The notes beneath the pieces are model-generated. The model worked only from the letters and a program-made list of their open reading frames with translations, did no database searches and had not been told where the DNA came from. Below, piece after piece: positions 30,157 to 36,490 of a DNA stretch of 64,000 bases. Source of the stretch: Stutzerimonas zhaodongensis (lineage in GTDB: Bacteria > Pseudomonadota > Gammaproteobacteria > Pseudomonadales > Pseudomonadaceae); the NCBI RefSeq assembly GCF_003696365.1, contig NZ_RFFM01000001.1, positions 945,852 to 1,009,851 of the forward strand. The letters are read 5' to 3'. The translations under genes were made by a program, and so were the position numbers. Position 1 is the first letter of the stretch, and each line of letters starts with the position of its first letter.

Positions 30157-30504
30157 ATGGCCATCGGTGAGCGACTGAAGGAAGAAAGGTCGCGCCTGGG
30201 ATTCAGCCAGACCGACTTTGGAGCGCTCGCAGGCGTGGGGAAGACGACCCAGATCAACTATGAGAAGGGCAACGGAAGCCCAAGCGCCGACTACCTCGCA
30301 GCCATAGCTGAAAAAGGTGTCGACGTTCTTTATGTGGTTACTGGGACGCGTGCAGCTGTCACAGCGGACGGTCTTTCGAGTGAGGAATCAGAGGTTCTGA
30401 ACCACTACCGTTCAATGCCGGACAGCGATCGAGCCGCAATACGAAGGATGTCCTCCGCACTGGCCGAGTCGGCCGGGCGATACGTAATCAATTCAGACCA
30501 GTAA
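30157..30504 (+). CDS. XRE-family phage repressor (CI-like)
   Basis: 115 residues from ATG 30157: helix-turn-helix in residues about 10-40 (LGFSQTDFGALAGVGKTTQINYEKG), a short LYVVTG segment and a helical tail (EVLNHYRSMPDSDRAAIRRMSS). It lacks a peptidase domain, so it cannot self-cleave under RecA; P2-type repressors likewise are not SOS-cleaved. First gene of the rightward lysogeny operon, expected to hold the early promoter off. Confidence 0.78.
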   Translation: MAIGERLKEERSRLGFSQTDFGALAGVGKTTQINYEKGNGSPSADYLAAIAEKGVDVLYVVTGTRAAVTADGLSSEESEVLNHYRSMPDSDRAAIRRMSSALAESAGRYVINSDQ

Positions 30505-30543
30505 TTCACTCATCGCCGAGTGAAGAGGCAAGGAGAAGCCAGC

Positions 30544-30810
30544 ATGCACGCATCAGCCATTGACCTTGAAGACCGCCCACGTGACTTCGGCGATCGCCTG
30601 CTCGAGGAGCGAAAGCGCCTCGGCATGGAAGTCCACGAACTGGCGCACCTGGCCGGCATGACCGACTACATGCAAAAGCGCTTCGAGAACGGCACCTCGA
30701 TCATCCCCATCGACTACCTGCAGGCGCTGGCCGCACGCAGTGATGCGGACGTGCTGTACATCATTACTGGCAACAGGAAATCAACTGGCTCGAGGTCGGA
30801 TCCGCAATGA
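30544..30810 (+). CDS. Second XRE-like protein of the lysogeny operon
   Basis: 88 residues from ATG 30544 with AGGAG upstream. The helix-turn-helix is similar to that of the preceding gene (FGDRLLEERKRLGMEVHELAHLAGM) and the segment DVLYIITGNRK repeats its end, so the two look like paralogues. Its stop overlaps the ATG of the EEP nuclease gene by four bases, so it is coupled to that gene and may regulate or partner with it. Confidence 0.72.
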   Translation: MHASAIDLEDRPRDFGDRLLEERKRLGMEVHELAHLAGMTDYMQKRFENGTSIIPIDYLQALAARSDADVLYIITGNRKSTGSRSDPQ

Positions 30811-31724
30811 ATCCACCGCAGTTATCCTTTGCTTGGTGGAATACCAGTTTCAAAGCCCCGGTTATAAGCGTTAATAAAATAAATCATAAAGCGCTCCTTA
30901 GAGCATGGTTCCTTTTCTGCCATCTCGACGATTTACTCAATCTGGATTTCATTGCGTTTGGCGAAGTCAATAACGATTTTATGGCTCAGATTGACCCAAT
31001 GCTCACTCATTCAGGCTTTAAAGGAATAGATGCTTCTGGCCGAGACGGCCGCATTACGAATGACATAGGTATCTTTTACAAGACCGAAACGCTCGAACTG
31101 ATTGATCACGAAAGCATAATAAAGCCGCACTACTCCGGACGATTAAAGATTGCGACACTATTTCGCTTTAACATCAAAGCAACGGTGGAGCCAATATATT
31201 TCTTCGTGGCACACTGGCCCTCAAAGCTATCACGACCAGAGCTAGGAAGAGATGAACTCGGAATAGCATTACGTGATTATATTGACGAGATCTTCGAAGA
31301 AGAAGGTTATAACGCAAAGATTATTATAATAGGTGACTTTAATAACGAGCCTTTCGAAGAACCTATTTACGACAAATTGCGCGCTACCCGTGACCGAAAG
31401 CTTCTCCTGACCAAACCTTTTTTCCTATACAACCCCTTCTGGCGCACCCTTGGAGGGCCGGCCCCATACTGCGGTCGTAGTGAGGTTTCGCCATGCCACG
31501 GCACGTATTATCTTAAGACGAGCCAGCACGTCACCAAATGGTTTACGTTTGATCAAATAATTGTATCGTCAGCTTTTCTAGGGCATGGCGACTGGCACTT
31601 AGCAGAAGGGTTAACTACGGTTTTGTCTTACGACAACTCAAGCATCCTCGGTGCTGAGTTTTTCAAAGATCATGACCATCTTCCTATTTACGGAAAGGTA
31701 GAAAAATATGAGCAAAATACTTGA
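30807..31724 (+). CDS. Endonuclease/exonuclease/phosphatase (EEP) fold protein, cargo
   Basis: 305 residues. The EEP catalytic residues can be placed in order: Asn in SFAWWNTSF, Glu in AFGEVNND, His in VAHWPSK, Asp/Asn in IIGDFNNEP and the last His in KDHDHLPIY. So it is probably a Mg-dependent hydrolase of nucleic acid or a phosphoester. The gene is much AT-richer than its neighbours and shows foreign codon use. It starts inside the stop of the second XRE gene and overlaps the next gene by 17 bases, giving a lysogen-expressed unit. No export signal. Role unknown; phage exclusion or defence is a reasonable guess. Confidence 0.75.
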   Translation: MNPPQLSFAWWNTSFKAPVISVNKINHKALLRAWFLFCHLDDLLNLDFIAFGEVNNDFMAQIDPMLTHSGFKGIDASGRDGRITNDIGIFYKTETLELIDHESIIKPHYSGRLKIATLFRFNIKATVEPIYFFVAHWPSKLSRPELGRDELGIALRDYIDEIFEEEGYNAKIIIIGDFNNEPFEEPIYDKLRATRDRKLLLTKPFFLYNPFWRTLGGPAPYCGRSEVSPCHGTYYLKTSQHVTKWFTFDQIIVSSAFLGHGDWHLAEGLTTVLSYDNSSILGAEFFKDHDHLPIYGKVEKYEQNT

Positions 31725-32109
31725 CGCCTTTAATTCCGGCATCACCATCGCAAAGCAGATGGAACGAAACCGCTGCGAAATCAATGAGACACTGAAGGAT
31801 GTATTTCAACAGATATTAAACGCTACGGACGGGAGATTGCAGCTAAGCTTATATGCCGATAGATCGAGCGTTTTCAAAAAAGAATACATAACAGCCAACA
31901 ACCCCTTGGTTGATTCTCCTTTTAAGGTGATATGTGAATGGCTTCCGGATTCGCAAAATGGATACCCGCTAAAAATTACCATGGAACACGAAACCTGGCA
32001 TTGCTCTACAAAGGAAGAAATAGAAGACTCGCTAGCTGATATATTTGCGAGGCCATCCGTAGCACTCCGCTTCCTCGATCTCATTAATATAGAGCAAACG
32101 CAAGCTTAG
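31708..32109 (+). CDS. Unknown small partner of the EEP protein
   Basis: 133 residues, soluble, mixed alpha/beta (ILDAFNSGITIAKQMERNRCEINETL at the start, ICEWLPDSQNGYPLKI, then SLADIFARPSVALRFLDL). No motif recognised. It overlaps the EEP gene by 17 bases and shares its low GC, so the two form one imported unit. It may be a sensor, immunity or activating partner. The gene converges with the SRAP-like gene. Confidence 0.65.
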   Translation: MSKILDAFNSGITIAKQMERNRCEINETLKDVFQQILNATDGRLQLSLYADRSSVFKKEYITANNPLVDSPFKVICEWLPDSQNGYPLKITMEHETWHCSTKEEIEDSLADIFARPSVALRFLDLINIEQTQA

Positions 32110-32119
32110 GCCCATGACA

Positions 32120-32551
32120 CTAAGACCGTTTGAGATTCAGTGCGGCAACTAGAGGCCATCGATCGTGGATCCAAGAAAACTCCTCCGGTGGCGTGCTGGT
32201 GACCACATACACGCGCCGCTGATCACCCTCTCTCAATACCAGGCAGTCCAGCGCGAAGCCTTCCTGCATTTCGAACCAGTGGGACATGCGCGAGGCGTCC
32301 TTCTCCATGTAGCGCTGCACCAGGCCGAACGCGCGTAGCGGCCGGTACTTCTCCCAGCCGCCCCGCTCTACCGTCTCAAGCCGCGCCCAGCCGCCCTGCG
32401 GGCCTTGGCCTGGCTCTTCACGCCGGCGGCCCCACTTGACCCAGCCCAACGACTCACCGCAGTCGAGCATCACCGGGAAGGCTGCTTTGGGGCTGGGAAA
32501 GTAGACCTTGTAGGCCTTTTCGGCGTCTCGCGCTTCTACGCCACCGCACAT
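32120..32551 (-). CDS. SRAP (HMCES/YedK)-like SOS-associated protein, short form
   Basis: 143 residues beginning MCGG, which puts the catalytic Cys at position 2 after Met removal, and ending with VYVVTSTPPEEFSWIHDRWP, which holds the SRAP His. WARLETV corresponds to the NAR-x-E strand of YedK, but its Asn is replaced and the protein is about 80 residues shorter than YedK. YedK forms a covalent link to abasic sites in single-stranded DNA. GGAGG precedes ATG 32551. It is divergent from umuDC across a LexA box, so SOS-controlled. Confidence 0.68.
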   Translation of the reverse strand: MCGGVEARDAEKAYKVYFPSPKAAFPVMLDCGESLGWVKWGRRREEPGQGPQGGWARLETVERGGWEKYRPLRAFGLVQRYMEKDASRMSHWFEMQEGFALDCLVLREGDQRRVYVVTSTPPEEFSWIHDRWPLVAALNLKRS

Positions 32552-32613
32552 GGTTTGCCTCCGGTCATCGGTCTGCTGTTTCCAATTGACCGCTAGGGGT
32601 ATCTTTCGTTTTA

Positions 32614-32629
32614 CTGTATGCACATACAG
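32614..32629. promoter_or_regulatory. LexA box (CTGT-N8-ACAG)
   Basis: CTGTATGCACATACAG is a perfect 16-bp LexA palindrome in the 98-base gap between the divergent SRAP-like and umuD-like genes. LexA bound here should repress both until the SOS response. Confidence 0.93.
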
Positions 32630-32649
32630 TATTTTACGGAAGTTGCTCT

Positions 32650-33087
32650 ATGACGCTCACCATTCTGGGTCGCGAAGATCGCCTGCGGCACCTGCTGCCG
32701 GAAGCGGCGGATCTGCGAATTACGGGCTTTCAGTCGCCCGCCGAGGACGAGAAGGAAGGTTGCCTTTCGCTGGACAGCCTAGTGGGCCTCGGGGCGCCGC
32801 AGATCTGGGTGGTGAGGGTCGACGATGACAGCCTGCTGGGCTTCGGCATGTACCCGGGCGATCGCCTGGTGGTTGACCGCTCGGCCCGCTGCAAGCCGGA
32901 CTGCTACGTGGTGGTCGGGCTGGATGGTGAAAACCAGTACCGCGTGCGGCTGCTGACCGAAGATGCCGACGGGCGCCTGGTGCTTAAAGCCGCCCACCGT
33001 TTCGCCCAGCCGATCAACCTGGAGCTCGAGGAGTTCGTCGAGATTTTCGGGATGGTGCGCTGGGTCATTAGCTATGTGGGCCGCTGA
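32650..33087 (+). CDS. umuD: UmuD-like S24 protein, catalytic Lys apparently lost
   Basis: 145 residues. TGFQSPAED matches the UmuD cleavage region (CGFPSPAAD in E. coli), and VDDDSLLGFGMYPGDRLVVDR holds the nucleophile Ser. The segment that carries Lys-97 in UmuD (DGEFTVKKL) reads DGENQYRVRLL here, so the general-base Lys appears replaced by Arg. Self-cleavage to UmuD' is therefore doubtful. It should partner UmuC in a translesion polymerase; the genes are two bases apart and share the LexA box. Confidence 0.82.
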   Translation: MTLTILGREDRLRHLLPEAADLRITGFQSPAEDEKEGCLSLDSLVGLGAPQIWVVRVDDDSLLGFGMYPGDRLVVDRSARCKPDCYVVVGLDGENQYRVRLLTEDADGRLVLKAAHRFAQPINLELEEFVEIFGMVRWVISYVGR

Positions 33088-33089
33088 GC

Positions 33090-34355
33090 ATGCCCATCTT
33101 CGCGCTGATCGATTGCAACTCGTTTTACTGCAGTTGCGAACGGATCTGCCAGCCGGAGCTCAAGCGGGTACCCGTGGTGGTGCTCTCGAACAATGACGGC
33201 TGCGTGATTGCCCGGACCAGTGAGGTAAAGCAGCTCGGCATTCCCATGGGCGCGCCTTTCTTCCAGGTCCGAGACCAGCTCGCCGCCGCCGGCGTTGTGG
33301 TGCGCTCGAGCAACTACACGCTGTATGCCGATATCAGTAACCGGGTGATGACGGTGATGGCCAGCATGCTACCGGCCATCGAGGTGTATTCGATCGACGA
33401 GGCCTGGGGTGACATGAGCGGCGTGCAGGAAGATCTGACCGAGTACGGCAAGCGCATCCGCGCGCGGCTGCTGCAATGGGTGGGCATGCCGGTTGGCGTG
33501 GGCATCAGCACCACCAAGACGCTGGCCAAGCTGGCCAACTGGGCCGCGAAGAAGTGGCCGGCCACCGGCGGCGTGGTAGACCTCACCGACCCCGCCCGGC
33601 AGGAACGTTTGCTGCGCATCGCCGCGGTGAGCGAAGTATGGGGCGTTGGCCGGCGCCTGGCGGCCCGCCTGCGACCACTGGGCATCGAAACGGCGTGGGA
33701 TCTCGCCCAGTTCGATATCGGCACCCTGCGCAAAACCTTCGGCGTCACCCTGGAGCGCACGGCGCGCGAGCTGCGAGGCATCAGCTGCATCGGCATAAAC
33801 GAGGGCCCACCACCGAAGCAGGCGATCTGCTCGAGCAAGATGTTTGGTCGCAAGCTGCGGGACCTAGGACCCATCCAGGAAGCGATGGCCACCTATGTGA
33901 CGCGCGCAGCGGAGAAGTTACGTCAGCAGCAGTCGCTCTGCGGGGCGCTGCAGGTGAGCCTGCAGACCCAGTATCACAACCCGGAACTGCCCCGGTACGC
34001 CAACGGCCTCACCTGCCCGCTCGCCACGCCCACGGACGATACTCGCGACCTGCTTGCCGTCGCCCTTCGCGGGCTGCGCCATATCTACCGTCCCGGCTAC
34101 GCCTATTCCAAGTGCGCCGTGCTGCTGATCGATCTGAGCCAGCGTGGCGAGGTGACGCCGGACCTGTTCGCGCCAGCGCCACGGCGCGGAGCGGAGCGCC
34201 TGATGAGCATCGTCGATCAGATCAACAAGCGCGAGGGCCGCGGCACGGTGCGCCTGGGTCGCGTACCCGTCGAACCGGACTGGGGCATGCGCCGCGACAT
34301 GATGAGCCGCTGCTACACCACCAATTGGGACGAGCTGATCACTGTTGGTGCCTGA
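33090..34355 (+). CDS. umuC: Y-family DNA polymerase V catalytic subunit UmuC
   Basis: 421 residues with palm metal sites in FALIDCNSFYCSCER and VYSIDEAW, steric SNNDGCVIAR fingers, the helix-hairpin-helix region around WGVGRRLAARL, and the UmuC C-terminal domain. It performs error-prone synthesis past lesions with UmuD'. It follows the umuD-like gene after two bases. The prophage may raise host mutation rate or repair its own damaged DNA on induction. Confidence 0.93.
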   Translation: MPIFALIDCNSFYCSCERICQPELKRVPVVVLSNNDGCVIARTSEVKQLGIPMGAPFFQVRDQLAAAGVVVRSSNYTLYADISNRVMTVMASMLPAIEVYSIDEAWGDMSGVQEDLTEYGKRIRARLLQWVGMPVGVGISTTKTLAKLANWAAKKWPATGGVVDLTDPARQERLLRIAAVSEVWGVGRRLAARLRPLGIETAWDLAQFDIGTLRKTFGVTLERTARELRGISCIGINEGPPPKQAICSSKMFGRKLRDLGPIQEAMATYVTRAAEKLRQQQSLCGALQVSLQTQYHNPELPRYANGLTCPLATPTDDTRDLLAVALRGLRHIYRPGYAYSKCAVLLIDLSQRGEVTPDLFAPAPRRGAERLMSIVDQINKREGRGTVRLGRVPVEPDWGMRRDMMSRCYTTNWDELITVGA

Positions 34356-35536: not shown

Positions 35537-36490
35537 ATGAATCGCTTTGTTTTCGTATTGCTTGCCACATTCCACCTTGTTTCACACGCCCACGGCGATG
35601 CGCCGGCCACCTTCTTGGCTGCCAAGGTGATGGCCAAACAGCAGATATTCTTCGACCAGGCGCTCAGCGACCAAGGCGAACTCTACTGTGGTTGTAAATG
35701 GGAGTGGACCGGCAAATCGGGCGGCAGGATCGATCCGAAGTCTTGCGGCTACGAAACTCGAGCTCAAAAGACTCGCGCGGATCGGATCGAGTGGGAACAT
35801 ATCGTCCCGGCCTGGATCTTTGGTCACCAGCGCCAGTGCTGGCAGAACGGCGGGCGGAAGAACTGCGTCGCGGATGACCCTGTATTTCGGGCGATGGAAG
35901 CGGACCTGTTCAACCTGTACCCGTCCGTTGGAGAGGTGAACGGCGACCGCAGCAACTACCAATACGCAATGGTGACTGGCGTCGCCCAACAGTACGGAGC
36001 CTGCCCTACTCGCGTGGATTTCAAGAGGCGAGCCGCTGAGCCACGCAATGACGTCAAAGGCCTGGTGGCGCGCTCCACCTTTTACATGTACGACCGATAC
36101 GGGCTGTCCATGTCCAGGCAGCAACAGCAGCTGCTCATGGCCTGGGATGAGCAGTATCCAGTGTCAGTTTGGGAGAAGGAATGGAACAGGCGCACCGCCA
36201 AGGTGATGGGCCACCCGAACCCGTTCGTGACGGGCGCTCGGTCTTGGAGCCTTGGCCACAAGCCATCCCGCGAGGGAATCGTGAGCGCTGTTCCTGCCCG
36301 GGCTGCTGCGGCCCCATCGTCCAAAGCCGGCAGCGCCGGCGTGATCATCGGCAATCGAAACAGCAAGGTTTATCACCTCGCCGAGGGGTGCCCAAGCTAT
36401 GACAAAGTGGCGCCAAAGAACCAGGTGCCGTTCCGTTCAGAGACCGAAGCTGCAGCCGCTGGCTATCGAAAGGCCGGCAATTGCCATTAA
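35537..36490 (+). CDS. Endonuclease I (EndA-like) with C-terminal Ada-like Zn domain, cargo
   Basis: 317 residues. A signal peptide (FVFVLLATFHLVSHAHG) is followed by an endonuclease I domain with the His-metal core WEHIVPAWIFG, Cys pairs and the NLYPSVGEVNGDRSN block. The last 45 residues (GNRNSKVYHLAEGCPSYDKV...EAAAAGYRKAGNC) resemble the metal-binding motif of Ada. It is a secreted or periplasmic nuclease that cleaves double-stranded DNA. It is transcribed against the late genes, so it has its own promoter; it could clear incoming or released DNA. Confidence 0.85.
   Translation: MNRFVFVLLATFHLVSHAHGDAPATFLAAKVMAKQQIFFDQALSDQGELYCGCKWEWTGKSGGRIDPKSCGYETRAQKTRADRIEWEHIVPAWIFGHQRQCWQNGGRKNCVADDPVFRAMEADLFNLYPSVGEVNGDRSNYQYAMVTGVAQQYGACPTRVDFKRRAAEPRNDVKGLVARSTFYMYDRYGLSMSRQQQQLLMAWDEQYPVSVWEKEWNRRTAKVMGHPNPFVTGARSWSLGHKPSREGIVSAVPARAAAAPSSKAGSAGVIIGNRNSKVYHLAEGCPSYDKVAPKNQVPFRSETEAAAAGYRKAGNCH

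Follow-up and report, generated by a model that had tools for sequence, protein, structure and literature searches.

An EEP-fold enzyme and its small partner protein form a two-gene prophage cargo and a candidate phage-exclusion module

Introduction

Which of the genes behind the repressor of a Stutzerimonas zhaodongensis prophage belong together as a unit, and could that unit exclude other phages? A first-pass annotation of the window, by which we mean the whole 64,000-nucleotide stretch of contig NZ_RFFM01000001.1 that was analysed, proposed that three genes following the repressor make up a defence unit expressed in the lysogen: an XRE-type regulator, an EEP nuclease and a partner protein of no known family. 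EEP enzymes are among the commonest phosphoesterases, and protein toxin-antitoxin modules, such as those of AbiEii type, are established agents of abortive infection. The literature that we searched yielded no stand-alone system, whether for defence or of toxin-antitoxin type, that has an EEP effector.

Results

Two of the three genes are imported cargo

The three open reading frames lie on the plus strand downstream of the repressor, at the coordinates originally assigned to them (Table 1), and they are joined by the overlaps of 4 (XRE/EEP) and 17 bases (EEP/partner) that had been reported, the ATGA overlap coupling the XRE gene translationally to the EEP gene in this prophage. The low GC content of the last two genes was likewise reproduced, at 43.7% for the EEP gene and 43.0% for the partner gene; the XRE gene has 59.6% and the 20 kb around these genes 60.0%. 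The prophage has tail genes D, U and T and its integrase region in common with P2-like and phiCTX phages. A promoter scan of the unit returned matches below chance level and no promoter could be called, and there were no Rfam elements between the genes. A few genes past UmuC, a 317-aa ORF (35537-36490, plus strand) resembles an exported protein of endonuclease I type.

Table 1. Coordinates of the cargo genes and of the borders of the cargo site in the window.
Feature	Position	Strand	Remarks
XRE repressor of the prophage; left border of the cargo site	30157-30504	+	PF13560, 5.1e-7
XRE-type protein	30544-30810	+	within mechanical ORF 30520-30810; repressor paralogue; ATGA overlap with EEP gene
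EEP-fold enzyme, presumed effector	30807-31724	+	305 aa; PF19580
Partner protein, presumed antitoxin or regulator of the EEP enzyme	31708-32109	+	133 aa
Right border of the cargo site	32120-34355		SRAP-like ORF (-); UmuD-like and UmuC-like genes (+)

The XRE protein had been read as a paralogue of the repressor, which its 40% identity bears out, and as a third member of the unit that might control the nuclease, which we reject. An 87% identical copy stands beside unrelated cargo in a sister prophage, L180, and no XRE gene recurs beside the EEP-partner pair at other loci. Because L180 keeps the XRE gene next to different cargo, we assign this gene to the phage backbone and take the cargo to be a two-gene pair.

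Comparison with related prophages supports the view that the pair was imported at a repressor-side hotspot. Copies of the repressor that are 62-66% identical occupy the same place in L180, L181 and the IMG/VR contig L014, all of which also carry UmuD/UmuC at 93-96% identity, and the SRAP-like right border is retained in three prophages of the same genus (L180, L181 and L182). Between these borders sister prophages swap in other genes: L180 has a 472-aa KAP NTPase (L180:3508-4923, minus strand) that matches PDC-S20 (E=1.7e-88), and L182, the left border of which is not conserved, has PDC-M03A/B. These two PADLOC candidates share the identical site with the window pair but are unrelated to it, being KAP NTPase and HipA/HIRAN proteins. 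L181 carries an NA37-like protein and a 410-aa unknown protein (L181:3455-5856, GC 46-47%), possibly another uncharacterised cargo pair. L014 itself has a diverged EEP-partner pair; behind it, L014:4663-6118 encodes two proteins, one of them YniB-like, with probable membrane segments.

The first cargo gene encodes an intact EEP-fold enzyme

The EEP protein matches Pfam PF19580 (Exo_endo_phos_3) with E=4.7e-14 and 52.6 bits, against a curated cut-off of 27. As first claimed, its catalytic residues are all kept: the set N12, E53, H136, D177, N179, D249, D290 and H291 (N, E, H, DxN, D and DH motifs) is invariant across 103 sequences save for D290, which is present in 101. The protein starts straight at a core strand and neither it nor its relatives have a signal peptide by eye, in line with the proposed absence of an export signal. 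Its AlphaFold model (pLDDT 91) has a DNase I-like fold, for which Foldseek gave Nocturnin (6nf0, E=5e-15) as the best PDB match, followed by TDP2 and CNOT6L, and Nocturnin also came first in a profile search (3.2e-7). The enzyme thus shares fold, metal site, catalytic residues and a significant profile match with the PF19580/EEP superfamily, but it occurs here in an obligate two-gene unit, whereas the solved known members are without such a partner.

Nocturnin is an NADP(H) phosphatase with substrate-pocket arginines R290 and R367 (PMC6542800). R290 aligns with EEP position 140, which is arginine in 82 of 103 members and lysine in the window, and the R367 region is not alignable; we regard the R290-equivalent position as a possible lead on the substrate and not as evidence of it. 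A housekeeping phosphodiesterase was considered and rejected, since the genome's seven other EEP matches are separate genes, the window gene being the weakest of the eight, and since the window EEP is absent from 55 congeners.

The partner protein matches no solved fold

No Pfam or NCBIfam model matches the partner, in agreement with its description as a protein without known family; the one hit is a weak match to phrog_10179 (E=1.4e-4). The structure model is confident (pLDDT 92.4) and consists of a long helix, five strands and two helices, and a search of the PDB returned no match to any solved fold. A partial similarity to Csn2 in PADLOC-DB (E=6.6e-4, 61 residues) was judged to be chance. 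At six loci (L038, L112, L119, L120, L121 and L157), mostly in Pseudomonas, the partner bears a long repetitive (K/A/P)n tail of the histone H1/AlgP type, a composition that suggests nucleic-acid contact. Several Bacillus phage G proteins (Gp643, Gp200 and Gp497), which may be a paralogous family, and further BFVD entries gave fold matches to the partner that were too weak to use.

The pair is obligate, co-inherited and rare

As a check, the first-pass annotation proposed a search of other genomes for conserved gene pairs of the EEP and the 133-residue protein, and the pair proved to be conserved. The window EEP as lone query of genome contigs found no relatives and an alignment was needed; a profile built from 11 EEPs recovered 80 loci from GTDB genomes, with 349 confirmed in all, and 64 from IMG/VR. 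A partner profile, seeded with ten manually paired sequences and iterated across all ORFs, matched 146 ORFs, 144 of which lie directly behind an EEP gene by a coordinate rule; the other two are also within EEP loci, one with a misread start in an overlapping frame (L015) and one with the partner upstream (L078). Conversely, 139 of the 140 fetched loci where the EEP reaches 150 bits have a partner homologue, and the contig of the single exception, L012, ends there. Among 102 measured pairs, 56 overlap and 46 are separated by 0-20 bases, with none further apart. Distances between pairs of sequences run parallel for the two proteins (r=0.82, a value that none of 2000 permutations equalled, with no permutation exceeding 0.14), and the partner diverges faster than the enzyme (mean identity 23% against 31%).

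Remote EEPs, from Bacteroidota, Planctomycetota and others, are mostly without a partner, and the pair therefore defines a subfamily of EEPs. By record title, partner-bearing EEPs occur in gamma-, beta- and alphaproteobacteria, Geomonas, Spirochaetaceae, Planctomycetaceae and myxobacteria. Prevalence is low, since only one of 369 genomes in a class sample has the pair. GC content was lower in the pair than in its flanks at every one of 100 loci, with a median difference of 11.7 points. The pattern of pseudogenes across loci is mixed: the EEP is broken and the partner intact in L011, L158 and L076, whereas L017 (pEC904) and L082 combine an intact EEP with a frameshift in the partner, although both of these frameshifts could be sequencing errors.

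The pair resides on diverse mobile elements and at a known defence hotspot

Portal genes (17 loci) and terminase genes (16 loci) form the two commonest neighbour clusters of the pair family. The portal gene is downstream and convergent in 16 of the 17 loci that have it, and a gpA-like replication gene is upstream in nine. The P2 gpA-gpQ region is a defence hotspot (PMC9122126, PMC9519451), and the gpA-portal loci of the pair correspond to it. Like the tin/old-type exclusion cargo of P2, the pair is thus found at the gpA-gpQ hotspot in many relatives, as an accessory swapped between related prophages, but we found no sequence relation between it and P2 Old or Tin. At further loci an integrase directly precedes the pair or UmuD/UmuC lie close by, and in Acinetobacter prophages the pair lies behind the integrase and ahead of an FRG-domain gene. 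The pair is also the main cargo of plasmids of 3.1-3.5 kb, among them 3.5-kb Klebsiella plasmids, where it stands beside replication genes. On an Acinetobacter plasmid it overlaps an Abi gene, and a Vibrio filamentous phage carries it as well. PADLOC-type matches adjoining the pair include Old, PD-T7-1, GajA/AriA-like, PD-T7-5 and PDC-S59; PADLOC families adjoining the pair outnumber those 5-8 kb away by 107 to 39, a modest enrichment that we treat as weak support because families rather than proteins were counted.

Virulent Acinetobacter phages carry the partner alone

In BFVD, the partner model was matched best by K4NXV2 of Acinetobacter phage IME-AB2 (Foldseek probability 1.0, TM 0.64/0.73), which we take to be AB2_37 from its phage, length and family. 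AB2_37 (115 aa, L164:18290-18637) is also matched by the partner profile (2.6e-16), with relatives reaching 8e-19. Lone partner homologues of this kind are present in 58 phage records, all from Acinetobacter (E 8e-19 to 3e-16), and, because phage records searched with members from Klebsiella and Pseudomonas yielded none, lone partners were found solely in Acinetobacter phages. An EEP gene was not detectable in the 43.0 of 43.7 kb of IME-AB2 that were searched, nor within 6-8 kb around the lone partner gene of six related contigs. No integrase is annotated in IME-AB2, and Obolenskviruses are virulent phages. The phrog_10179 protein AB2_37 is homologous to the window partner (E about 3e-16 with the family profile) but stands alone in virulent phages without an EEP gene, whereas the window partner is paired with one. 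Acinetobacter, the host genus of the lone-partner phages, has the full pair in its prophages and plasmids.

A lone partner in virulent phages of such a genus is how a captured antitoxin or inhibitor would be expected to look, and the Obolenskvirus-type partner is a candidate counter-defence protein; it could also put the same fold to an unrelated use.

Discussion

On balance, we favour the reading that the EEP enzyme and its partner are a two-gene phage-exclusion module of toxin-antitoxin type, in which the enzyme is restrained by the partner and released upon infection. Like a toxin-antitoxin system, the pair comprises two adjacent, coupled and co-inherited genes, and like defence cargo it occupies a variable site shared with defence candidates of sister phages. 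The first gene would supply the effector, a cytoplasmic, metal-dependent phosphoesterase acting as a nuclease or nucleotide phosphatase, and the second a small protein that would bind the enzyme and restrain or license it. In the lysogen, the repressor transcript would yield both proteins; when another phage infects, the partner would be disturbed, and the freed enzyme would attack nucleic acid or a nucleotide pool such that the infection fails. In virulent phages that have only the partner homologue, this protein may serve as a decoy antitoxin, and it is mainly because of this homologue that we cast the partner as a restraint rather than a co-catalyst. Expression in the lysogen, as first proposed, and anti-phage activity of the pair are both plausible. 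The loci with a frameshifted partner beside an intact EEP count against this reading, because such a state should be lethal if the lone enzyme is strongly toxic.

With AbiEii-type modules the pair has in common two overlapping genes, a catalytic first protein, a small divergent second protein and a lone inhibitor-like phage homologue, but neither an EEP effector nor the partner fold is known to have been described in a toxin-antitoxin system.

The same evidence can be read in other ways. The EEP-partner complex might be a direct-acting nuclease that the partner, sometimes through an H1-like basic tail, brings to invading DNA or replication structures with no release of a toxin, the lone phage protein then being a dominant-negative partner. 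The tails at six mostly Pseudomonas loci and the fold matches to DNA-processing TDP2 and DNase-like enzymes are consistent with this, as is the report in PMC9519451 that, of the 11 defence systems there with components for DNA binding or cleavage, 7 conferred direct immunity; however, the tail is limited to those few loci and the best fold and profile match is Nocturnin rather than a DNase, and we consider a direct-acting nuclease unlikely. Less likely again is an addiction module that stabilises plasmids or prophages, with defence not its main role. Its position as main cargo of 3.1-3.5 kb plasmids and its toxin-antitoxin-like size, overlap and co-inheritance would fit such a module, but the pair resides at phage hotspots where defence candidates are swapped, and the virulent phages that carry the lone partner need no addiction.

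The enzyme resembles Nocturnin best by both structure and profile, and since Nocturnin acts as an NADP(H) phosphatase (PMC6542800), this resemblance also accommodates a metabolic or lysogenic-conversion pair, for instance a nucleotide or cofactor phosphatase that aids the host or the phage cycle without being defensive. Against this, the pair is patchy and rare (1 of 369 class genomes), it travels on diverse mobile elements, and its partner diverges faster than the enzyme (23% against 31% mean identity), all of which make a metabolic role the least probable of these readings.

Returning to the toxin-antitoxin-type module, the claim that no described system has this make-up agrees with what we found: PADLOC-DB 2.0.0 has no match for the EEP and no system model describing the pair, no model in Pfam, NCBIfam or the named PHROGs describes it, and the literature searched, which was mainly open-access, holds no such system. 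More tentatively, and short of an even chance in our estimation, the pair may be a novel anti-phage system whose EEP effector would act on a nucleotide or cofactor pool, as Nocturnin does, or on nucleic acid, under a controller of new fold, and which virulent Acinetobacter phages would counter with a captured copy of that controller.

The near-inseparability of the pair, its locations at defence sites and the lone partner in some lytic phages suggest an undescribed defence or toxin-antitoxin module together with a phage counter-move. The module is compact, is found in several phyla and comes with a natural test case in the lone partner homologue of well-known lytic phages. If this is true, a class of effector, a new fold of small protein and a family of counter-defence proteins would be gained together.
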